38,018 bases of DNA from a virus. This document shows, piece after piece, positions 620-35,445 of this stretch. Where the stretch lies: positions 1 through 38,018 of IMG/VR virus record IMGVR_UViG_3300046557_000447, one strand, 5' to 3'. Made by a program: the position numbers and the translations under genes. Every line of letters starts with the position of its first letter. The first letter of the stretch is position 1. The notes under the pieces were generated by a model. The model was not told the origin of the DNA. It saw only the letters and a list, made by a program, of their open reading frames with translations, and did not search any database.

Positions 620-1060
620 ATGGCCCTGTGGGAGTGCGCGGAGTGCACAACCAAGTACGCGGTGGGCATGCCGCAGTGCCCGCACTGCGGGTCGACTGTG
701 CGCGTCAACGAAGCGACACGACCTCCGGAGGAGGACGACGACATGGCCAAGGTCACCGTGCACGGCGGGCCATCCAACGCGCTGACTGGGCTCGCGGACG
801 GCGAGCACGTGCTGAGCGCTGAGGCTGTCGCGGCCGCGACAGAAGGCGGTGAGGACGTATCAGCTGGGAACAACTCCTCGACATCACCCGAGAAGCCGTC
901 GAGCTCGCCCGCACCGAAAGAGACGCCGCCCCCGTCGCGTGTCCGAACGACGGGGAGCCGCTCAAAGAAGGGCCAGACGGACAGCCCTTCTGCCCCTTCG
1001 ACGGGTGGCGGCCAGGCGGACGGTACGTCGGCGACCGACTCGGCTGCTGACAAGTCCTGA
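620..1060 (+). CDS. Zinc-ribbon protein with a disordered tail, unknown function
   Basis: A 146-aa protein. ATG at 620 follows the previous stop by one base, so translation is probably coupled. Residues 1-25 form a zinc-ribbon-like motif: CAEC near residues 6-9 and CPHC near 20-23. The second half is low-complexity Ser, Pro, Thr and Gly and probably disordered. In between is a short stretch beginning MAKVTVHGGPSNA. Its place in the head-gene cluster suggests a minor head or assembly role, but nothing in the sequence proves it. Confidence 0.6.
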   Translation: MALWECAECTTKYAVGMPQCPHCGSTVRVNEATRPPEEDDDMAKVTVHGGPSNALTGLADGEHVLSAEAVAAATEGGEDVSAGNNSSTSPEKPSSSPAPKETPPPSRVRTTGSRSKKGQTDSPSAPSTGGGQADGTSATDSAADKS

Positions 1061-1100
1061 CCCTGATCCGACAACGCACATCGAAGGGAGGTGACGAGAG

Positions 1101-2159
1101 ATGACGACACCCTGGTACGCGACCCGCGAGGAAATCAAGGCCGAGCTGGACGTGAAAGAGACCGCACGCTCCAACGCCCGGATCGATCGCGCGCTGGCCG
1201 ATGCGACCGAGGCCGTCGAGGGTCTGACACACCGCGTGTTCTACCCGATGCAGGACACCCGCAAAATGGACTGGCCGCCCCGTACTGGGGCCACCCCGTG
1301 GATCCTGCGCCTCGACGCGAACGAGCTCGTCTCCGTCACCTCCCTCACCTCCGGAGGCAAGACGATCGCCCCCGGGGACTACCTCCTGCGCCGGGCCGAC
1401 GACAAGGCCGAGCCTCCGTACACGCGCATCGAGATCAACCTCGGCGGCCCGGCCTCGTTCGGCGGGGGCAGCACCTACCAGCAGGACATCGTGGTGACCG
1501 GGCTGTTCGGCTACCGCAACGACGAGACCGCGGCCGGCACCCTCGCCGCGCAGGTCGCGACGGCTGGCGCGACCACCATCACGGTCGACGGGCCCGCGTC
1601 TGCGGCGCTCGGTGTCGGGTCGCTGCTGCGTATCGACAACGAGCGGATGATCGTCACCGGCCGCACCCAGCTCGACACCGGGCAGGGCTTCGGCGACTCG
1701 ATGACCAACACCAACAACGACGTCAGCATCGGCGCAGCGAACGGCGGCGTGTACGCGGTCGGTGAGGTGATCCTCCGGGACTCCGAGCGGATGCTGATCA
1801 CCGACATCGCAGGCAACACACTCACCGTGACCCGCGCGTGGGACGGGTCCGTCCTCGCCGCGCACCCCGACTCCGCGATCTACGCCCCCCGGGTCCTCAC
1901 CGTCGTGCGTGGCGCGCTCGGTACTACGGCCGCCGTCCACAGCAGCGGGGCGAGCGTGGCCCGCTGGGATGCGCCCGGAAGCGTCCGGCAGCTGTGCGTC
2001 GCGGAAGCCCTCACGGACCTCTTGCAGGGCCGCTCCGGGTACGCGCGGACCGCCGGGGCTGGGGACAACGAGCGGGAAGCGTCCGGCCGTGGCCTGAAGG
2101 ACCTACGGGACCGCGTCTACACCAGCCACGGCCGCAAGGCTCGGACGAGGAGCGTGTGA
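1101..2159 (+). CDS. Head-tail connector (adaptor) protein with a beta-rich insertion
   Basis: A 352-aa protein with an excellent ribosome binding site (AAGGGAGGTGA, about 9 bases before ATG 1101). The N-terminal part (about 1-120) begins with an amphipathic helix typical of gp6-like connectors (ATREEIKAELDV, then a helix with ADATEAVEGLTHRVFYP). Residues about 145-240 are a Gly/Thr/Val-rich beta segment not needed in minimal connectors of about 100-150 aa, so the protein is enlarged. The C-terminal helix (about 290-345) resumes the connector pattern. It would sit under the portal in the neck. The family call rests on pattern and gene order. Confidence 0.65.
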   Translation: MTTPWYATREEIKAELDVKETARSNARIDRALADATEAVEGLTHRVFYPMQDTRKMDWPPRTGATPWILRLDANELVSVTSLTSGGKTIAPGDYLLRRADDKAEPPYTRIEINLGGPASFGGGSTYQQDIVVTGLFGYRNDETAAGTLAAQVATAGATTITVDGPASAALGVGSLLRIDNERMIVTGRTQLDTGQGFGDSMTNTNNDVSIGAANGGVYAVGEVILRDSERMLITDIAGNTLTVTRAWDGSVLAAHPDSAIYAPRVLTVVRGALGTTAAVHSSGASVARWDAPGSVRQLCVAEALTDLLQGRSGYARTAGAGDNEREASGRGLKDLRDRVYTSHGRKARTRSV

Positions 2160-2160
2160 C

Positions 2161-2535
2161 GTGCTGCTCGACGTATCCACCCAGTCCCGCGGCCCCCTCT
2201 TCGACGGACGGGCCCGCGCCGCCGCGAACGCCTACGTCAACAGGTTGGAGCGCGACCTCGCCGAAGAGGGCCTGAACATCCTCCGCGGCGAGATGCACCG
2301 CGTGTTCCGCAACCCGACCGGCTACTACGAATCCCGCTGCAAGGTCATCGAGGGACACAAGATCTCCGACTCCCGCGTGGTGTACGGGCCGTGGCTGGCC
2401 GGCATCGGGTCCCGGAACTTCCCGGTGACGAAATTCCGCGGCTACGACCACTGGACCGTCACCCGGGAAAAGTTGAACGCCCGCAAGGTCGGTATCGGTG
2501 AGCGGCTCCTGCGCCGGTATACGGGCAGGATGTGA
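2161..2535 (+). CDS. Neck / head-tail joining protein (putative)
   Basis: A 124-aa protein starting at GTG 2161, one base after the previous stop. It is rich in Arg, Tyr and Gly, with a helical N-terminus (about residues 15-50) and a basic C-terminus ending RRYTGRM. Its place between connector and tail-terminator candidates is where HK97 gp10-like or other neck proteins occur. The sequence shows no catalytic motif. The stop overlaps the next start (GTGA), so the two are translationally coupled. Confidence 0.55.
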   Translation: MLLDVSTQSRGPLFDGRARAAANAYVNRLERDLAEEGLNILRGEMHRVFRNPTGYYESRCKVIEGHKISDSRVVYGPWLAGIGSRNFPVTKFRGYDHWTVTREKLNARKVGIGERLLRRYTGRM

Positions 2536-2999
2536 TCACGGTGGCCCTCGATCTCCTCGCCTACCGCAGCGCGGCTATGTCCCACGCTCAGAGCCTCGGC
2601 TTGTTCGAGCAGGTACTCGGCCACGAGCCCGTGTCCGCGCCCGGGTCGGGTCTGATCTACGCGCTGTGGGTCACGGACATCGCTCCGATCCCGGCACGGT
2701 CCGGACTGTCCTCGGTATCGGCCCGACTAGAGCTGACCGGGCGGGTGTTCATGCCTGCGGACAGCGAGCCGCAGGACGACGTCGACATCGCAGTGACGGC
2801 CGCGGTCGACGGGCTGATGAACGCATACTCCGGGGACTTCGAGCTCGGCGGGACCGTGGCGAACGTCGACCTGCTCGGCATGCACGGTGCCGGGCTGCGG
2901 GCGCGGTTCGGCTTCACGCGCTTCGACAGCACGACTTACCGGGTGGCCACGCTCACCATCCCACTCGCGATCAACGACGCATGGACGGAGGCCCCGTGA
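2532..2999 (+). CDS. Tail terminator / tail completion-like protein
   Basis: A 155-aa protein starting at GTG 2532 with a 4-base overlap with the upstream gene. It alternates helical and beta segments. The size and position, last before the tail-tube genes, match tail terminator proteins that cap the tail tube and join it to the neck. The stop overlaps the start of the next gene (GTGA at 2996). No specific motif is visible, so this is a positional assignment. Confidence 0.5.
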   Translation: MITVALDLLAYRSAAMSHAQSLGLFEQVLGHEPVSAPGSGLIYALWVTDIAPIPARSGLSSVSARLELTGRVFMPADSEPQDDVDIAVTAAVDGLMNAYSGDFELGGTVANVDLLGMHGAGLRARFGFTRFDSTTYRVATLTIPLAINDAWTEAP

Positions 3000-5175: not shown

Positions 5176-8100
5176 CGACGTGACGATCACAGTCCGGGTC
5201 GATGACCGCACGGCGGCCGGATTCCGCGACGTCAACGGCAGGTTGCGTGACATGCGCGGCCGGTTCGCGGCGACCGCCGGGGACATGCAGCGGTCCGGGA
5301 ACGGCCTGACCGGGGCGCTCATGGACGTCCGGGCGTCGCTGCTGTCCCTCGCCCCGGCCGCGGTTCCGGTGGCCGCGTCGCTGGCTCCGATCGCTGTGCA
5401 GGCTGGGGCCGCTGGGCTGGCGGTGGCCGCGTTCGGTGCTGCGGTGATCCCGCAGATCGCGAACCTGAAGGACGCGGCCGACGCGCAGACGAAGTACTCC
5501 GATGCGGTCCAGCGGTACGGGGCGCAGTCGAAGCAGGCGATCGCGGCGCAGCAGCAGGCGCAGCAGGTGCTCGCGGGGATGCCGAAGGCGACGCAGCAGG
5601 CTGCGGGCGCGTACCTGGTATTGAAGGACAAGTTCACGCAGTTCTCCGACAGCACGGCGAAGTTCACCATGCAGCCGGTCGAGAAGAGCTTCGCGGTGCT
5701 GGGGCAGATCGTTCCGAAGCTGACGCCGATGGCGGAGGGCGCGGCGAAGCAGCTGGACCGGCTGGTGACCGTCGCGGGCGGCGCCATCAACACGAGCGGG
5801 TTCGACACGCTGTCGAAGAAGGTCAGCGACTTCGCGAACTCGGCCCTCAAGCGCGCGACGGACGGGGCGATCCACTTCGGGCGGGTGCTGTCCGAGGGCA
5901 ACGCGCACGGCCCGCTGTCTCAGTTCATGCAGTACGCGCGGGAACAAGGGCCTGCGGTCAAGGAGCTGCTGACCAATTTGGCGTCGGCGGCCGGGAACCT
6001 GGCGCAGGGCGCGGCGCAGGCGGGGCCGGGTCTGCTGACGGTGGTGAACGCGCTGGCGAAGATGGTGTCGGCGGTCCCGCCCGAGGTCATCGGCCGGCTG
6101 ATGCAGATGTACGCGGCGTTCAAGTTGATCAAGCTGGCGGGTGCGGGAATCGGGGCGGCTGCGGGCGGGATCCAGTCGCTGGCCACGAAAATCACCGCAC
6201 TGCGGGCCGCATCAGTTGCTGCGGGCGGCGGCGTGGCCGGGCTGCGTGCCGCGTTCATGGCGCTGGGTACCGCGACGAAGGCCACGGTCGTTGTCGCGGG
6301 GATCGCCGCGGTGGTCCTGGTCCTGTCGAAGCTATCGAACATCGGCAAGTCGGCGCCTCCGGATGTCGACAAGCTCACCTCGGCGCTGACCAGGCTCGGT
6401 GCCACCGGTGAGGTCACGGGTGAGGCAGCGAGCAAGTTCGGGGCGCACTTCGAAAAGCTGAAGTCCCAGATGGACAAGGTGCTCGACCCCAGCATTTCGG
6501 AGAGCGTCAACAACTGGGGTCACAGCGTCTCGGGCGGCCTGCTGAAGGGCGGCGACGCCACGGAGGAACTGACCGGTTCCTTCAAGGCGATCGATGAGTC
6601 TCTGGCCGACCTGGTCAAGGGCGGTAAGGCCAAGCTGGCCGGGGCCGCGCTCACGGACATGCTCAGCCGCATGAACCCGGAGCAGGTCAAGAAGCTGCAA
6701 GGGAGCCTCACCAAGTACAAGGACGCGTTGGCGGATCAGGCGCTGGAAGCGAAGCTGACGGCGCAGTCGCAGGGGCTGTTCGGGCAGGCGGCTCAGGACA
6801 CGGCGGCGAAGTTGGACGCGCAGAAGGCGAGCGCGGACGGGCTGCGCGGCGCGATCCAGGCCCTGAACGATGTCAACCGGCAAGGTCTCGGCGGGATGAT
6901 CGGATTCGAAGCCGCGATCGATGCTGCGTCCACGGGCGGCAAGAAGTACCACGACGTTCTCAGCATGCAAAACGGCCAGCTGAGCCTGAACACAGACAAG
7001 CAGCGTGAAGCTGCCGGGCTCCTCAGCGACCTTGCGGACAAGACTGACAGCGCGGCATCGAGCGCACGGGAGTCGGGCGCGTCCTGGGAGAAGGTCAACG
7101 GCATCTACAGCCGGGGACGTGAGCAACTGATCGCGTCAGCACGGGCCATGGGCCTGGGCAAGACGGAAGCAGCGGCGCTCGCGGATCAGATCTTGAAGAT
7201 CCCGGACAAGACCACCACGTTCAAGATGAACAAGGAGGACGCGCAGCACGATATCGAGTCGTTCAACGCGGCGCTCAAGGCGACTCCGGGCGCGAAGTCG
7301 GTGACGCTGAAGGCGCTCAGCAAGTCGGGTGAGCAGGTGCTGGAGTCGTTCGGGCTGAAGGTGAAGCGCCTCCCGGACGGCTCGGTGACGGTGTCCACGA
7401 AGGGCGGCGCCCTCTCCACGATCAACAACATCGCCGCCGCGCTGCGCCGGTTGGACGGCAAGAGCGCCACGACGTGGACGTTCCACAACATCAAGACGAA
7501 CTACTCGACCTCGAACAGCGTCTCCGGCGGCAAGAGCGTCCACGACATGGTCGGCGCGACAGGCGGCCTGTACACCGGAAAGGGCTCGGGGTTCCGGTAC
7601 GCCGAGGGCGGCCTTGTCCGCGGCCCGGGGACAGGCACGTCGGATGATGTCCCGGCTCCGTGGCTCAGCAACGGCGAGTTCGTCATCAAAGCTGCGGCGG
7701 TACAGAAGTACGGCGAGCGCTTCCTCCAGCGGGTCAACGACGGTCAGCTCGACGGGCCGAAGTTCGCCAAGGGCGGCAAGGTGTCGAAGCTGGCCCAAGC
7801 AGAGAAGGACGCCCGCGGGAATCTGCGAGGCCAGTTCGGGATCAGCTCGTTCGGGCGGATGGCCGGGTACCAGCGGACCTCATTCGAGAAGGGCCTCGCT
7901 ACCCCGTCCGATCTGGGGTCGCTGGTCGCCGCACTGAACACCGCACGCGGCGAGATCAAGGGCGCGACGCACGGTGGCACGGAGTCGCGTCTGCTGCACC
8001 AGTTGGACTCGGTCGGCAAGAGCCTCATCAAGGCAGAAAAGTCGCTGAGCAAGGTGACCGCGTCCCTCGACAAGGCGAAGTCGAAGCTCGACAACCTGAA

Positions 8101-9399: not shown

Positions 9400-12129
9400 A
9401 TGCCAGGGAGTGTTGCCGCACGGTCGATGGGCTGGCAGCGCCGCATGCGCGCCGCGGCTGGTCCCCTCGGCGCGTCCGGGGCGGCCTCGACCGGCGCCCC
9501 CGTGACGGTGGAGCTGCTCGTCAACGGCGTGTGGGTGGACATCACCTCGTACGTCATGGTCCGCGATGACCAGGGGCAGATCACCCTCACCAAGGGGATT
9601 CGCGACGAGGGCAACCAGACCGAACAGGCCAGCGCCAGCCTGCCGCTGAAGAACCAGGACGGCCGGTTTACCCCCAGGAACCCCATGGGCGTCTGGTACG
9701 GGCAGATCGGACGCAACCAACCGGTCCGCATCTCGGTCCCGGACGGGATGGGCGGCAAGTCGTACCGCGTCCAGGGCGAGATCCCGCGCTGGCCCGCATC
9801 GTGGGACCCGACGGGCGCGGACGTATGGGTCGACGTCAGCGTGAACGGACCCCTCCAACGCCTCGCGCAGGGCCCGACTCCGGAACGCAGCGTGATCTAC
9901 AACGCGGTCACGGATCCGATCCCGTCGTCGGTGGTGGCGTACTGGTCGTGCGAGGACCCGTCGGACGCGACGACAATCAAGTCCGCGCTCGTCAGCGGCT
10001 CCCCGATGACAATCTCTGGAACCCCAGCCCTCGCCTCATACGCGGGGTTCGGCGCGTCCGATCCGCTGCCCGACCTCACCGCAAGCTACCTGTCCGGGGG
10101 CGTCGTCGCCTACGACGAACCCACCGCGACCCAGGTCCGCTTCCTCGCCTTCATTCCCGCGATCGGCCTGTCGGACGGCAAGGTGCTCTGCTCGATCGAC
10201 CAGGTCGACTACTCCGCCGGCTCGGCGCAGTTCTGGGAGCTGTACTACTCGACAACCGATGCTTCCAACTCGCTGGTGCTGCGCACGTGTGCGTCCGACG
10301 GCACGTTCCTCGGTATCCAATTGCCCCATACCCTGGATGTCCGCGGCCGTCAAATGTACGTGTCCGTCGAGCTGCAGGAGTCCGGGACGGCGATCACCCG
10401 AACGGTGCGGATCACGGACATCAACACCGGGGCAACGTCAAGCGTCACCGACACCCAGAACGTGACCCAGCTCTCCCGCGTGGTCAAGGTGCAGTTCGGC
10501 CCCGCGGCTCGTGCCACAGCTGGCCCGGCTGGCACCCAGTACCTACCTGGGGTCGCCGTCGGGCACGTGACCGTGGAGAACACGATCACCGCTGTGGGCG
10601 CGCTCGGGGTACGCCTCAACCCGATCGGGGAGGCCGCAGGGCGCCGCATTCAGCGCCTGTGCGGCGAGGAGGGGATCCCGTTCGACTGGGTGGGCGACCT
10701 CGACGACACCGTCGACATGGGCGCGCAGGGTAAGCAGAATCCGCTGACCCTGATGCAGGAGGCCGTCCTCGCCGACGACGGCCTGCTGTACGAGAACCTC
10801 GCCGTGCTCGGACTCGGCTACCGCACCCGGGCATCGCTGTACAACCAGGACCCGGCCCTGGTGCTGAACTACGCCGGGTTCAACTTGGCGGAGGTCCCCA
10901 CCCCGGTAGAAGACGACCGCTACTTGGCCAACCGCGTCACGGTCAGCGTGGGCGGCGTGACGGCCACCTACGAGGAGACAGCCGGCCCCCTGTCGACAGC
11001 GCCCCCGCCGGCCGGGGTGGGCGTGTACGGGCCGAACGCAGACTCGCCGCTCACCCTGAACCTTGCGACGTCGGACACGCCGACGCTGTTGGACCAGGCG
11101 GCGTGGCGGGTGCACCACGGGACGGTGGACGAGGCCCGCTACCCGCAGATCAGCGTCAACTTGGCGCATGCGTCGATCACTCCGGACATGCGGCGGGCGG
11201 TCCTCGCGCTGCGGATGGGCGACCGCGTCCAGATCATCAACCCGCCGTCCTGGCTCGGCGGGGACACGATCGACCAGCTGATCCTCGGATTCGAGGAGTC
11301 CATCACCCACTTCCAGCACAAGCTGACGTTCACCTGCGCCCCCGCGAGCCCCTACAGCGCGATCGGGGTCCTCGACACCACCGCCCGCTTGGACACGGCC
11401 GGCAGCCAGCTCGCGGCGGACGTCACAGCGGGCGCGACGACCCTGTCCGTGGTCACCACTTCGGGCCCGGCCTGGGTGCAGTACGGGCAGCTCAACGCGA
11501 ACAGGAATTTCGAGACCGACCTCAACAACTGGTCGGCTTCCGGATCCGCTATCGCCCGCGTAGCTACTCCGGGCACCCCGGCATTCCCTGGCCTGTGGTC
11601 GCTACAGATCACCCCGGACGGCGTCTCCCAGTTCCCGAACGCGGGCAGCGAGCAGATTCCTGTGACGGTCGGCCAGCAGTACACGCTGTCGGGGTGGCTG
11701 CTGTGCGCCACCTCGCGCGCCGTCGACCTGAACGTCAACTGGTTCGACGTCGCTCACGGATATCTGAGCACTTCGGGAAATGAGTTGACGGTCGCCGCGA
11801 ACACCTGGACTTTCCTCTCACTCACCGCGACCGCCCCGGCAAGCTCCGTGTACGCAAACTTGGCACCGACCGTGCCCAACTTTCCGCCGTCCGCTGATGT
11901 TCTCTACGCGGACGAAATCATTTTCCGTCTCGCGAGTGAGACCGCTAACCCCGATGATTTCCCGTTCGATATCAGCGTCGGCGGCGAAACCATGACCGTC
12001 ACCCGCATCGCAGGCGGGACTTCACCACAAACGTTCACCATCGGCGCCCGCTCCGTCAACGGAATCATCAAAGCCCAAACCGCAGGCACCGCCGTGAGCC
12101 TCGCCAACCCGACCATCCTCGCCCTGTAA
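9400..12129 (+). CDS. Large minor tail protein with lectin-like and carbohydrate-binding-like domains
   Basis: A 909-aa protein; GTAGGTGA lies just before ATG 9400. Residues about 30-150 form a distal-tail-like domain (VELLVNGVWVDITSYV, PLKNQDGRFTPRNPMG). Residues about 170-400 read as a concanavalin/LamG-like beta sandwich (AYWSCEDPSDA, then AQFWELYYST). Residues about 415-640 fit a baseplate-hub or tail-spike-like core. Residues about 700-830 (NRNFETDLNNWSASGSA, YTLSGWLLCAT, ADVLYADEIIFR) have the jelly-roll pattern of CBM-type domains that bind cell-surface sugars. It probably forms the tail tip and contributes to host recognition. Domain names are by pattern, not by search. Confidence 0.8.
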   Translation: MPGSVAARSMGWQRRMRAAAGPLGASGAASTGAPVTVELLVNGVWVDITSYVMVRDDQGQITLTKGIRDEGNQTEQASASLPLKNQDGRFTPRNPMGVWYGQIGRNQPVRISVPDGMGGKSYRVQGEIPRWPASWDPTGADVWVDVSVNGPLQRLAQGPTPERSVIYNAVTDPIPSSVVAYWSCEDPSDATTIKSALVSGSPMTISGTPALASYAGFGASDPLPDLTASYLSGGVVAYDEPTATQVRFLAFIPAIGLSDGKVLCSIDQVDYSAGSAQFWELYYSTTDASNSLVLRTCASDGTFLGIQLPHTLDVRGRQMYVSVELQESGTAITRTVRITDINTGATSSVTDTQNVTQLSRVVKVQFGPAARATAGPAGTQYLPGVAVGHVTVENTITAVGALGVRLNPIGEAAGRRIQRLCGEEGIPFDWVGDLDDTVDMGAQGKQNPLTLMQEAVLADDGLLYENLAVLGLGYRTRASLYNQDPALVLNYAGFNLAEVPTPVEDDRYLANRVTVSVGGVTATYEETAGPLSTAPPPAGVGVYGPNADSPLTLNLATSDTPTLLDQAAWRVHHGTVDEARYPQISVNLAHASITPDMRRAVLALRMGDRVQIINPPSWLGGDTIDQLILGFEESITHFQHKLTFTCAPASPYSAIGVLDTTARLDTAGSQLAADVTAGATTLSVVTTSGPAWVQYGQLNANRNFETDLNNWSASGSAIARVATPGTPAFPGLWSLQITPDGVSQFPNAGSEQIPVTVGQQYTLSGWLLCATSRAVDLNVNWFDVAHGYLSTSGNELTVAANTWTFLSLTATAPASSVYANLAPTVPNFPPSADVLYADEIIFRLASETANPDDFPFDISVGGETMTVTRIAGGTSPQTFTIGARSVNGIIKAQTAGTAVSLANPTILAL

Positions 12130-30064: not shown

Positions 30065-30247
30065 ATGGACGACACCACCATCACCGCGGTCGACGGGACC
30101 GACGCCCTCGCCTTCGTCATCATCCGCCCCGGCTCCACTGAGGGCGGCGTGTCGATCGAGGCCGTAGCCAATGGCCTCAGTAAGCGGTCCGCGGCGTACG
30201 TCCTGCGCCAGGTCGCGGACATGTGGGACGCGGAGGCGGGCCAGTGA
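30065..30247 (+). CDS. Small early protein, unknown function
   Basis: A 60-aa protein three bases after the previous stop. It has an N-terminal beta-rich half and a helical C-terminal half (LSKRSAAYVLRQVADMWDAE). GGGGACTGACCC precedes it, so GGGG is the likely ribosome binding site. Overlaps the next gene by GTGA. No family recognised. Confidence 0.55.
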   Translation: MDDTTITAVDGTDALAFVIIRPGSTEGGVSIEAVANGLSKRSAAYVLRQVADMWDAEAGQ

Positions 30248-30834
30248 CCACACTGTTCGACCTCGACACCCCGGCCACGGCCGCCCCTGTGGCGGCCGGG
30301 CCCCGGCCCCTCGTCATCGGAGGCGACCTCTCCCTCCGCTGCACCGGCATCGGCTCCGCCGAATGGACCGACTACGTCAAGCCCAAGGCCGCACTCCGCG
30401 GGAACCCCCGCCTCGCCTACCTCATGGAAGAGATCGGCTCGTTCCTCAAGAACGCCGACCTCGTCGTCCTCGAAGGCCCCTCCTTCGGCCACGCCGGACA
30501 GGGCGGCCACGAAGAACTCGCCGGGCTCCGCGTCATGGTGCAGCACTGGCTGTGGCGCCGCGAAATCCCGTACGCCATCGTCCCGCCGTCGTCGCTGAAG
30601 CTGTTCTTCGCCGGGTACGGCAAGGCCTCGAAGGCGCAGATGCGGGCCGCGGCCGAGCAGTTGTACGGCCGCACCTTCGAAGGGCCAGGCGCGAACGACC
30701 AGTGCGACGGGTTCGCGCTTGCCGCGGCTGGCTGCCACTGGCTGGGCTTCCCGCTCGCGGAGATCCCGGCGGAGTACAGCGCTGCGCTGGCCGGTTGCGT
30801 GTGGCCGGAGCGCGAGGCGGTGACCGCGCGGTGA
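30244..30834 (+). CDS. RuvC-like Holliday junction resolvase
   Basis: A 196-aa protein starting at GTG 30244. The RNase H-like RuvC pattern is clear: VIGGDLSLRCTGIG with D28, LVVLEGPSFG with E77, and the pair D152 and D155 in GANDQCDGFALAA. It should cut four-way DNA junctions in a metal-dependent way, resolving recombination or replication intermediates before packaging. It belongs with the exonuclease and annealing genes upstream. Size is normal for phage RuvC relatives. Residues 1-20 are a flexible Ala/Pro leader. Confidence 0.85.
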   Translation: MTTLFDLDTPATAAPVAAGPRPLVIGGDLSLRCTGIGSAEWTDYVKPKAALRGNPRLAYLMEEIGSFLKNADLVVLEGPSFGHAGQGGHEELAGLRVMVQHWLWRREIPYAIVPPSSLKLFFAGYGKASKAQMRAAAEQLYGRTFEGPGANDQCDGFALAAAGCHWLGFPLAEIPAEYSAALAGCVWPEREAVTAR

Positions 30835-31562
30835 CTCACTACAGCGGGGCCGTCCCCACCACCCAACGCGCCAAGGACTGGCGCGACCAAGCCGCCTGCC
30901 GCACCGAAGATCCTGAACTGTTCTTCCCTAAAGGCGACTCGGGGCCCTGGCTCCCTGCCATCGAGGAGGCCAAGAACGTCTGCCGGCGCTGCCCCTCCGC
31001 CGGAGCCTGTCTCCAGTTCGCTCTCACCGAGGGAATCGACTCCGGCATCTTCGGCGGGCTCACTGAGCAGGAACGACGCAGTGTCCGCCGCACCGCGAAA
31101 CGCCGTCAGATCCCCGTCGGCCAGGCCGTAGCACGCAAAGCAGCAAGGACCCCCAAGCCGACCACCATGCGGGGCATCTTCAACGCCAGCGCCACGCCCC
31201 TCCCGGACGGGCACGCCGCATGGACCGGCACCCGCCAGGTCCATTTCAAGGGGCAGGTCTTCACGCCCAAGCAGTTCGTGTTCACCCTCGACCGCGGACG
31301 GGCGCCCGACGGCCGCGTGACCTCGGAGTGCGGCGTCACCAACTGCATCCTGCCCGCTCACCTCAAGGACCAGCAGGAACGCGGGATCTGCGGCACCCGG
31401 ACCGGCTACCGGCAGCACCTCCAGGAGAAGACGGAGATCTGCCCGCCGTGCCGCCGCGCGAACGCGGACGCAGACAACCGGCTGCGCCGCACCGGCACCA
31501 CCCTGGCCGCAGCGTCCGAGGTCTTCCCCCTGCGGGCCGAGCATCAGGCGGTGGCGTCATGA
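30831..31562 (+). CDS. WhiB-like protein with C-terminal zinc/HNH-like extension
   Basis: A 243-aa protein starting at GTG 30831. Residues 15-90 are a WhiB domain: DWRDQAACR with C23, then C51, C54 and C60 (CRRCPSAGAC), and the GIFGGLTEQER turn. WhiB proteins hold a 4Fe-4S cluster and act on the sigma factor to control transcription. Residues about 115-220 are an unusual tail containing SECGVTNCILPAHL, which resembles the HNH core, then CGTRTGYRQHL and CPPCRRANADAD, as in other Streptomyces phage proteins. The HNH-like part has too few catalytic residues to be called a nuclease. Normal WhiB proteins are about 80-130 aa, so this is a fusion. Confidence 0.75.
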   Translation: MTHYSGAVPTTQRAKDWRDQAACRTEDPELFFPKGDSGPWLPAIEEAKNVCRRCPSAGACLQFALTEGIDSGIFGGLTEQERRSVRRTAKRRQIPVGQAVARKAARTPKPTTMRGIFNASATPLPDGHAAWTGTRQVHFKGQVFTPKQFVFTLDRGRAPDGRVTSECGVTNCILPAHLKDQQERGICGTRTGYRQHLQEKTEICPPCRRANADADNRLRRTGTTLAAASEVFPLRAEHQAVAS

Positions 31563-33645: not shown

Positions 33646-35445
33646 GTGGACAACGTCCGCCACATGCCGCGCGACCAGGCGGACCAGGACGGCCTCACAC
33701 GCACCAGCCCCCACGACGCCGAGGCCGAAAACTGGATGGCCGGCGTCATCATGCACAGCCGCACAGCCTTCCTCGAATGCGCGGAAGTCCTCGACCGGGA
33801 CGACATCTACCAACCCGCGGTCCGCCTCATCTGGGACGTGGTCGGCGGCATGGTCGCCGAACAGAAGCAGCTCCACCCCATCACCGTCCGCGCCGAGATC
33901 GAGAAGCAGAAGCAGCTCCGTACCGTCGACGACGGCCGTCTCCTCGACCGCCTCGGCGCCGAGACGATCTCCCCGACGATGGCGCAGGCCTTCGCCGAAC
34001 GCATCGCCGACGTTGCGAAGATCCGCCGCCACGACGAACACGCCAACCGCGTCAAAGCACAGATCCAACTCGGCGCCACTGCCGAAGAGCTCGACAAGCT
34101 CGACGCCGACCACCGCCAGTACGAGGAGCGCCGCGCCACCACCGGCCACGGCCCCTCACACCTCACCGCCGCGTTCCTCGACTGGAACCCGTTCTTCGCC
34201 ACCGACTTCGGCAGCGTCCAACTCCTGCCCGGCAAACTCCTCGGCCCCGGCCAGCAGATCACCATCGTCGGCGAAGGCAAGGCCGGTAAGTCCCTCGTCG
34301 TCCAAGAGTGGCTGTGGCGCATGGCCACCGGCCAGAGCTTCCTCGGCGACCGCCCGCAGGCCCCGATCCCCCTCCTGTACGTCGACGCGGAGAACGGCCA
34401 CCAGGACATCCAGGAACGCTTCCTGTCCTACGGCGCGGGCCCGGGACGCATGGGCCTGATGACCTACGCAAGCTTCCCGCCGATCCGCCCCCTCGACACC
34501 GCGGGCGGCGGCGCCGACCTGATGGCCATGGTCAAGGAGACCGAAGCCCAACTCGTCTGCCTCGACACCGTGTCCCGGTTCATCTCCGGCCCGGAGAACG
34601 ACGCCGACACCTGGCTGTCCCTCTACCGGCACACCCTGCTCCCCCTCAAGCGCGCCGGCATCGCCTCGGTGCGCCTCGACCACATGGGCAAGGACGGCGA
34701 GCGCGGCGCCCGCGGCTCGTCCGCGAAGACGCAGGACGTCGACCACGTGTGGGAGCTGAGAGCGCAGGGCGGCGGCACGCTCGTCCTCAAGCGGACCCAC
34801 ACCCGCACCGGGATCGGCCCCGACGCCTTCGTCCTGGTGCGGCAGTCGCAGAAGGACGGCGACCGCTACCGGCCCGGCTGCACCCGCCACGTCCTCATGG
34901 AGTACGACCGCCCGGAGCAGGCCGTCGAGGGCTCCGTCGAGTGGCTGATCCAGAAGATCGACAGCCTCGGCCTGCCGAACGACGCGGGCAACCCGCGCAC
35001 GATCAAGGCGCTTGCGACGGCCGGTATCAGGGCCGGAAAAGACAAGATCGCCGACGCGGTCCGGATTCGGAAAAACCGGGACAACTTGGGTTCCCGGGAA
35101 ACCTTCCCGGAGACCTTCCCGGAAGGGGTTCCCGGGGAACGTTCCCCGGGAACTTTCAAGGGATCGCAAAAACCCCAGGTCAACCATTCCCCGGAAACCC
35201 CGCGGGAACCCGCGGAAACCCCCCCTTCCCCCCCTTCCCCCCCTCTACGAGAGGGGAAGGGGGAGGGAAGCCCCGGCACAGGTGTCACAGACACCCCCCT
35301 CTGCACCATCTGCGAGACCCCCATGAACACCGACTGGGCAAGCCGCGGATACGACACCCACATCGGCTGCGACCCCGCCACCGGCAGCCACCCCGACCGA
35401 CCCCAACACCCCACCACCAACCACGAAGAAAGGCACAGCGCATGA
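33646..35445 (+). CDS. Replicative helicase-type protein (DnaB-N-like plus RepA/RecA-like ATPase)
   Basis: A 599-aa protein with GAGGAG before GTG 33646. Residues about 20-130 resemble the helical N-terminal domain of DnaB helicases (DAEAENWMAGVIMHSRTAF). Residues about 195-450 are a RecA-like ATPase: Walker A GEGKAGKS (209-216), Walker B-type LLYVDAEN (243-250) and LVCLDTVSRF. It resembles RepA-type helicases of phages and plasmids. Residues about 480-545 are a Pro/Glu/Gly low-complexity linker encoded by iteron-like repeats, and a CTICETPM zinc-like pair follows near the end. It should unwind phage DNA at the origin that may lie within this gene. Confidence 0.85.
   Translation: MDNVRHMPRDQADQDGLTRTSPHDAEAENWMAGVIMHSRTAFLECAEVLDRDDIYQPAVRLIWDVVGGMVAEQKQLHPITVRAEIEKQKQLRTVDDGRLLDRLGAETISPTMAQAFAERIADVAKIRRHDEHANRVKAQIQLGATAEELDKLDADHRQYEERRATTGHGPSHLTAAFLDWNPFFATDFGSVQLLPGKLLGPGQQITIVGEGKAGKSLVVQEWLWRMATGQSFLGDRPQAPIPLLYVDAENGHQDIQERFLSYGAGPGRMGLMTYASFPPIRPLDTAGGGADLMAMVKETEAQLVCLDTVSRFISGPENDADTWLSLYRHTLLPLKRAGIASVRLDHMGKDGERGARGSSAKTQDVDHVWELRAQGGGTLVLKRTHTRTGIGPDAFVLVRQSQKDGDRYRPGCTRHVLMEYDRPEQAVEGSVEWLIQKIDSLGLPNDAGNPRTIKALATAGIRAGKDKIADAVRIRKNRDNLGSRETFPETFPEGVPGERSPGTFKGSQKPQVNHSPETPREPAETPPSPPSPPLREGKGEGSPGTGVTDTPLCTICETPMNTDWASRGYDTHIGCDPATGSHPDRPQHPTTNHEERHSA
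35091..35246 (+). other. Iteron-like repeats and polypyrimidine tract inside the helicase gene: candidate origin
   Basis: The repeat TTCCC(C)GG(G)AA occurs at least six times in about 100 bp: 35091 (TTCCCGGGAA), 35104, 35116, 35129, 35142 and 35187, with partial copies after it. It is followed by CC-C5-TT-C7-TT-C7-TCT (35219-35246), a 28-base run of pure pyrimidines. Iterons next to an unusual-strand region inside a replication gene are typical of phage origins. The amino acids encoded there are low complexity, as if DNA function came first. Confidence 0.55.
35228..35267 (+). repeat. Hairpin-forming purine/pyrimidine inverted repeat
   Basis: The pyrimidine run (C7 TT C7 TCT, 35228-35246) is followed by the three-base loop ACG and the purine run AGAGGGGAAGGGGGAGGG (35250-35267), so the strand can fold on itself with a small bulge of three C. 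The sequence can also form a triplex or a stable stem. It is adjacent to the iteron-like repeats and sits in codons for the PPSPPSPPLREGKGEG segment. Confidence 0.6.

Follow-up and report, generated by a model that had tools for sequence, protein, structure and literature searches.

We looked at a repeat-rich element lying inside a viral helicase gene, which an earlier note on this DNA had proposed to be an origin of replication. The window, that is, the whole stretch of DNA analysed, is a 38,018-base virus record (IMG/VR IMGVR_UViG_3300046557_000447) from a genome of about 70% GC. The gene lies on the + strand at 33646-35445 and encodes a 599-residue putative initiator-helicase, recognised by Pfam, PDB profile and Foldseek matches. 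Pfam places DnaB_N at residues 21-122 and an AAA_25/RecA-like ATPase at residues 193-352 (AAA_25 1.2e-18, DnaB 5e-12). The family profile, compared with the PDB, matched DnaB helicases and RSF1010 RepA (1g8y, E 9e-4), and the predicted structure resembles DnaB (Foldseek, 2.3e-16). These two domains are followed, in this order, by a three-helix domain, a disordered linker and a Cys/His tail. The three-helix domain, which is helix-turn-helix-like (residues ~428-480; 34927-35085, + strand), is the proposed origin-binding domain; AlphaFold2 (AF2) predicts helices at residues 431-440, 449-458 and 465-478, and the divergence of the domain correlates with that of the half-site of the repeats. The linker, residues 480-548, is of low complexity, as the earlier note had remarked, and is predicted to be disordered (predicted local distance difference test, pLDDT, <50). 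The DNA encoding it (35083-35295, + strand) holds the repeats and is the proposed origin. The tail (35302-35376, + strand; CxxC ... HxxC) is probably zinc-binding and does not track the half-site. Across the window and its relatives, the tail exists in two or more versions (NTDWA... and GYRxD...), which are exchanged independently of half-site or ATPase type.

The linker DNA carries five perfect units of the form TTCC(n)GG(n)AA (TTCC+GG+AA) and an imperfect one, so that the claim of at least six TTCCC(C)GG(G)AA copies within 100 bp holds, the six units spanning about 106 bp (35091-35196). Unit 1 (TTCCCGGGAA, 35091-35100) consists of the half-site GTTCCC and its mirror, and it is followed by the imperfect unit 2 (TTCCCGGAGA, 35104-35113), unit 3 (TTCCCGGAA, 35116-35124), unit 4 (TTCCCGGGGAA, 35129-35139) and unit 5 (TTCCCCGGGAA, 35142-35152), the latter two pairing in a perfect 13+13 palindrome at 35128-35153. 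Units in this left group are 12-13 bp apart. Next comes a core word on the + strand (CAGGTCAACC, 35176-35185; family consensus CAGGTCARAC), whose DNA is conserved in either of two reading frames and which also occurs in plasmid genes of the rep1 type, and immediately 3' of it lies unit 6 (TTCCCCGGAA, 35187-35196). On the right side of the array there are two inverted half-sites on the - strand (GCGGGAACCC and GCGGAAACCC, 35202-35222). Clustered direct and inverted repeats, as in iteron-type origins, are thus present in the form of six units and two inverted half-sites, and the perfect TTCC+GG+AA unit is absent from the rest of the window. The array leads into a C-rich pyrimidine tract with a hairpin (35219-35270, + strand). 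The pyrimidine run measures exactly 28 nt (35219-35246), as had been noted, and is the sole + strand run of at least 14 nt. It pairs with the purine run at 35249-35270, which at 22 nt clearly exceeds the second longest in the window (14 nt), confirming the proposed hairpin, whose apical stem is formed by 35240-35246 and 35250-35256. The earlier bounds of the element, 35091-35267, were right as to its location and too narrow as to its extent, since a wider interval of about 35083-35275 takes in the core word and the whole hairpin.

We then compared this DNA with its own synonymous permutations, in which codons were shuffled within the linker while the protein and the codon set were kept fixed (10,000 rounds for the window). 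The window contains 31 inverted 8-mer pairs against a permutation mean of 5.3, a number never reached in 10,000 rounds, and 25 direct pairs against a mean of 6.1, reached twice. Five perfect units, for a mean of 0.8, were attained in a single round. Other segments of the same gene, used as a control, were mostly no different from their permutations. In nearly all of 51 distinct relatives, which are phage and prophage genes drawn from IMG/VR, GTDB genomes and a phage collection, at most 10 of 500 permutations attained the observed direct and/or inverted pairs; these relatives are related to one another and the counts are not independent. Moreover, the units of the window begin in all three codon phases. 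The core word CAGGTCARAC, with small variants allowed, occupies a constant position in 49 of the 50 aligned relatives, being read as PQVNH or PQVKH in 20 of them and mostly as (A/P)GQT in 29, and a shorter form of it occurs 53 times in the linkers of relatives where synonymous permutation predicts 12.7. Because the word is conserved across frames, selection on the protein cannot explain it, and selection on DNA (or RNA) can. These results strongly support that the repeat and hairpin region is selected as DNA and not as protein, as the earlier note had suspected. A linker of low complexity in a genome of about 70% GC could in principle be a slippage-prone, proline-rich segment with biased codons and no DNA function. 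This explanation is barely conceivable, since it is already contradicted by the permutations, which do not reproduce the repeats, by the core word conserved out of frame, and by the half-site type, which follows the three-helix domain as described below.

Folded as DNA, a 206-nt strand of the region reaches -57 kcal/mol, compared with -43.7 kcal/mol in 200 dinucleotide shuffles (z -3.6). When only the terminal hairpin was folded, as RNA, it did not improve on shuffles matched to its C/G-run composition (z -0.9), and for this reason the evidence for the hairpin is comparative: the apical stem differs among relatives with the pairing preserved (C-G, T-A or A-T at one position), and a C(GNA)G loop is found in 24 of 50 relatives. 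GNA triloops form very stable single-stranded DNA hairpins, and by analogy this stability would suit an extruded single-strand signal. A stem that varies while its pairing is preserved would also be expected if the repeats and hairpin acted in the mRNA, by attenuation, pausing or an antisense mechanism. We regard such an RNA element as extremely improbable. No Rfam family was matched at the gathering score, no T run follows the hairpin, the hairpin alone is no stabler as RNA than the shuffles, and palindromic duplex sites, direct and inverted, that follow a DNA-binding-like domain would be unexpected for an RNA signal.

The element was also found to be unique in the genomes that contain it. 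A 19-nt pattern made of the core word and the adjoining unit, CAGGTCARACRTTYCCCGG, was never seen more than once in a Streptomyces genome and is present in 5 of 9 and in 8 of 393 genomes searched; the reversed pattern, used as a control, gave 0 matches in the same searches. All 8 matches in the 393-genome search belong to this helicase gene family, and the idea of satellites that have the core pattern but no helicase was rejected on this count. A match that had seemed different (L114) proved to be an inversion splitting the helicase gene. At most one site per genome disfavours the operator of a regulon, for which several promoter copies would be expected. A simpler operator, where the protein would bind the repeats in its own gene and act as a repressor or as a roadblock to RNA polymerase, taking no part in initiation, deserves consideration, since a cluster of palindromes recognised by an adjacent DNA-binding domain would have the same appearance and initiators often autoregulate. 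However, the cluster lies about 1.4 kb into the open reading frame (ORF) and not at a promoter, no second copy was found upstream of other genes in the window, and the core word and hairpin are held in common with plasmid replicon genes. An operator in place of an origin is therefore very unlikely, while autoregulation alongside origin function could coexist.

Three observations concern the location of the element in other genomes. In a prophage (L121; G365 contig 1, ~2453046-2457957), an inversion splits the helicase gene after the three-helix domain into pieces at 1046-2614 (+) and 5544-5957 (-), the C-terminal sequence being the same as that of L091. The intact origin candidate is found, together with the C-terminal tail, at a distance of about 3 kb on the opposite strand, the first Cys of the tail is changed to Arg, and no inverted repeats of at least 10 nt were found at the breakpoints. 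This split prophage offers a natural test of origin and helicase working apart. In the Streptomyces phage mu1/6 (L001), a second small cluster of CTGCCC/GGGCAG half-site words lies outside the helicase gene, at 9480-9601 in the WhiB-like gene gp29. Finally, Streptomyces sp. NBC_01016 (L030, L031) has two copies of the helicase region, each near one end of a large contig, perhaps from a prophage within terminal repeats.

Repeat-unit conservation had been put forward as a check on the origin, and we observed that relatives keep the layout while the half-site differs from group to group: GTTCCC/GGTTCCC in the group of the window, and CGTTCCC, CGTTTCC/CGTTCCG, CCTCCCC or CCTGCCC (mu1/6) in others. 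Across 50 relatives, half-site distance correlates with the divergence of the three-helix domain (Spearman 0.72). The partial correlation with the other domains held fixed is 0.64, a value as high being obtained in 0 of 999 permutations, although this procedure corrects only partly for kinship among the relatives. Contrarily, the half-site does not follow the N-terminal domain, either half of the ATPase or the C-terminal tail (partial correlations from -0.10 to 0.12 in the same 50 relatives). Individual cases agree with this. The window and L014 or L021 have ATPases about 90% identical, but the identity falls to 43-49% in the three-helix domain and their half-sites differ, and L100 combines an ATPase resembling that of L078 with the CCTCCCC repeats and a three-helix domain resembling those of L050. 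Proximity alone is insufficient to account for the link, because the C-terminal tail adjoins the other side of the array and does not track the half-site. The simplest reading of these comparisons is that the three-helix domain recognises the half-site. They also bear on the proposal that the helicase gene happens to contain a site for partition (parS), for packaging (pac/cos) or for a recombinase, with which a single cluster of inverted symmetry per genome would equally fit. Such a site would hardly be expected to track the three-helix domain and none of the other domains of the helicase, the element lies within the replication gene in every relative seen, and its nearest analogues are plasmid replicon genes; we consider this proposal highly unlikely.

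These analogues were found in Streptomyces. A circular plasmid of S. mobaraensis (23.9 kb) encodes a DnaB_N/AAA_25 helicase, and in the gene directly upstream a 37-nt repeat recurs in five imperfect copies. These include TTTCCGCAGGTCAGA, of which 15 nt are shared exactly with part of the mu1/6 array, and a C-rich tract and hairpin come after them. The same gene pair is present on linear Streptomyces plasmids, and 53 plasmid records match the upstream gene. Nine of these plasmid genes were examined: direct repeats exceed synonymous permutations in all nine, a C-tract with a hairpin comes after the arrays, and CAGGTCA is found in the linker of eight, again in differing frames. The word GCAGGTCA is thus common to the phage array (35176-35185) and the plasmid arrays (L122-L130) although their iterons differ. 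Its binding partner is perhaps a host factor; to our knowledge the word has no resemblance to the Streptomyces DnaA box.

The interval 35083-35275 is very probably the replication origin of a Streptomyces phage or prophage, an iteron origin lying inside, and bound by, its own initiator-helicase; in the same judgement, with the same high confidence, it would resemble a plasmid replicon with initiator and helicase fused. An origin inside the helicase gene, as the earlier note proposed, is supported by what was observed and computed, namely DNA-level selection, repeats at a single location per genome, their co-divergence with the three-helix domain, and a plan, in layout and word, in common with the plasmid iteron gene. 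It is mainly because of this plasmid parallel that we take the element for an origin and not for a binding site of some other type. For the way it would work, we infer binding, opening, loading, priming and a role of the hairpin as follows. The DnaB/RepA-type helicase would use its three-helix domain (residues 428-480) to bind the GTTCCC/GGGAAC half-sites, and these, direct and inverted on both flanks of the core word, would position several helicase protomers into a complex. The duplex would then open, perhaps at a short AT-richer spacer near 35153-35174 or by extrusion of the hairpin. The extruded C-rich/G-rich hairpin would expose a single strand for helicase entry and priming, and the DnaB-like part would load on this exposed strand.

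Several points weigh against this interpretation. The three-helix domain of the window has no Pfam family, and only two one-member matches were found elsewhere (E 0.02-0.06); nor was any significant fold match obtained for it in the PDB, the weak ones (E >1) including some homeodomains. There is no AT-rich tract of the lambda type, and at most a short, moderately AT-rich spacer (~35153-35174) in this 70% GC genome. The cumulative GC skew does not change direction near 35 kb and declines steadily along the rightward genes. Finally, the co-divergence could come partly from co-inherited neighbouring DNA, and a recombination breakpoint at the border between array and tail could contribute to the half-site link.

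With moderate confidence, we extend the origin interpretation to a replicon made of a single gene and distributed over Streptomyces phages and some relatives. Judging from the sequence comparisons, this would be a replicative helicase that has an origin-binding domain of its own and also, in its linker DNA, its own origin. Domain and half-site would be swapped together, as a matching set, among helicases that are alike in other respects, and the core word and hairpin would be shared with Streptomyces plasmid origins. If this is true, phages could switch origin specificity by one recombination event. The analysis provides an origin candidate of about 190 bp in some 50 genomes, together with a predicted binding domain, in a phage family that includes the long-studied mu1/6. 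From the natural pairs of half-site and domain, a recognition code could be read. The fusion of helicase and initiator would show origin recognition and helicase loading in one protein, and the element could serve as a compact orthogonal replicon for actinomycete vectors. Elsewhere in the window, at 30171-31562, we observed an ORF of 463 residues with a WhiB domain at residues 237-304 (Pfam); part of it is also covered by a second ORF, 30223-30834, read in another frame, and the start of the longer one is probably misplaced.

Origins placed within replication genes are known from other systems, and the likeness that had been drawn to such phage origins is borne out by the lambdoid ori, whose iterons lie in the middle part of the initiator gene O (PMC7466680). 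In both cases the iterons are within a known or putative initiator gene, the array of our phage being flanked by the three-helix domain on one side and the C-terminal tail on the other. The lambda ori would be a functional analogue of the phage element. The two differ in other respects. No similarity to O was found in the phage helicase, where Pfam recognises DnaB_N and AAA_25 only, and lambda O recruits the host DnaB via P, whereas the proposed binding domain of the phage is fused to the helicase. The direct iterons of lambda are longer than the palindromic units of 10-11 bp, spaced by 12-13 bp and accompanied by a hairpin, seen here, and the array leads into a C-rich tract with no lambda-type AT-rich tract beside it. 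Since there is neither similarity to O nor such a tract beside the array, we do not class the element as a lambdoid origin.

RSF1010 RepA has the AAA_25/RecA-like helicase core in common with the phage protein, which shows the fold of a RepA-like hexameric helicase by its profile match to 1g8y and its DnaB/RecA fold, but the phage helicase has a fused DnaB_N and the additional three-helix domain. RSF1010 also uses a separate iteron-binding protein, RepC, and a separate primase. Priming signals of the RSF1010 ssi type were considered as a possible model for the hairpin. Pfam recognised no RepC iteron binder or RepB primase among the window genes scanned, which were only part of the gene set.

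The closest phage system is that of mu1/6, a phage of Streptomyces aureofaciens, whose DNA helicase gp21 is 46% identical in protein to that of the window. It has the same layout and core word, with the half-site CCTGCCC/GGGCAGG, and differs in this half-site and in the three-helix domain; its record is annotated as a helicase only. Direct nucleotide similarity of the element to phage or plasmid records was not found, as expected since the half-sites change, and the open-access literature searched, which lacked the original mu1/6 genome paper, gave no published origin for mu1/6 or these phages. Outside Streptomyces, the linker of a distant relative, an AAA_25 protein from a Solirubrobacteraceae MAG (metagenome-assembled genome; L057), has unrelated repeats, GGGTGCCA and TGGCACCC, at the same place, with 31 and 26 pairs compared with 2.9 and 3.9 by synonymous permutation, and Actinosynnema (L051) likewise has unrelated repeats there. 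From these two sequences, the arrangement may extend beyond Streptomyces phages.

Among Streptomyces plasmids, the theta plasmid pWTY27 has an iteron of GTGGGAAC/TTCCCAC repeats with a long hairpin, bound by RepA in electrophoretic mobility shift assay (EMSA) and footprint experiments (PMC3583192). Its half-site is nearly identical to the GTTCCC/GGGAAC of the phage, and both combine direct and inverted repeats with a stem-loop, that of pWTY27 being long and RepA-bound. By its published description, the pWTY27 element differs in being a non-coding sequence of 300 bp and in that RepA is not described as a helicase (PMC3583192). Linear Streptomyces plasmids, as summarised in a paper citing Chang and Cohen 1994 (PMC13152386), replicate bidirectionally from a central replicon made of the rep2 helicase and the rep1 iteron. 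The nine plasmid genes described above are, in our reading based on gene order and helicase type, rep1 in this published sense. In the rep1/rep2 replicons (pSLA2, SCP1 type) as in the phage, the helicase is of the DnaB type (DnaB_N and AAA_25), the iterons are placed in a low-complexity part of a replication gene, and the word GCAGGTCA stands beside them, followed by a C-rich tract and a purine/pyrimidine hairpin. The plasmid iterons, however, lie in a separate gene upstream of the helicase, whereas in the phage the DNA-binding-like domain, the origin and the helicase form one gene. Since a separate rep1 gene is absent, the phage element is not classed as a rep1/rep2 replicon; the iteron sequences are also unlike, and the likeness covers the layout and the word, not the three-helix domain compared with Rep1. 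Within these terms, the comparison would connect the origins of these phages with the rep1/rep2 replicon that linear plasmids of Streptomyces use.
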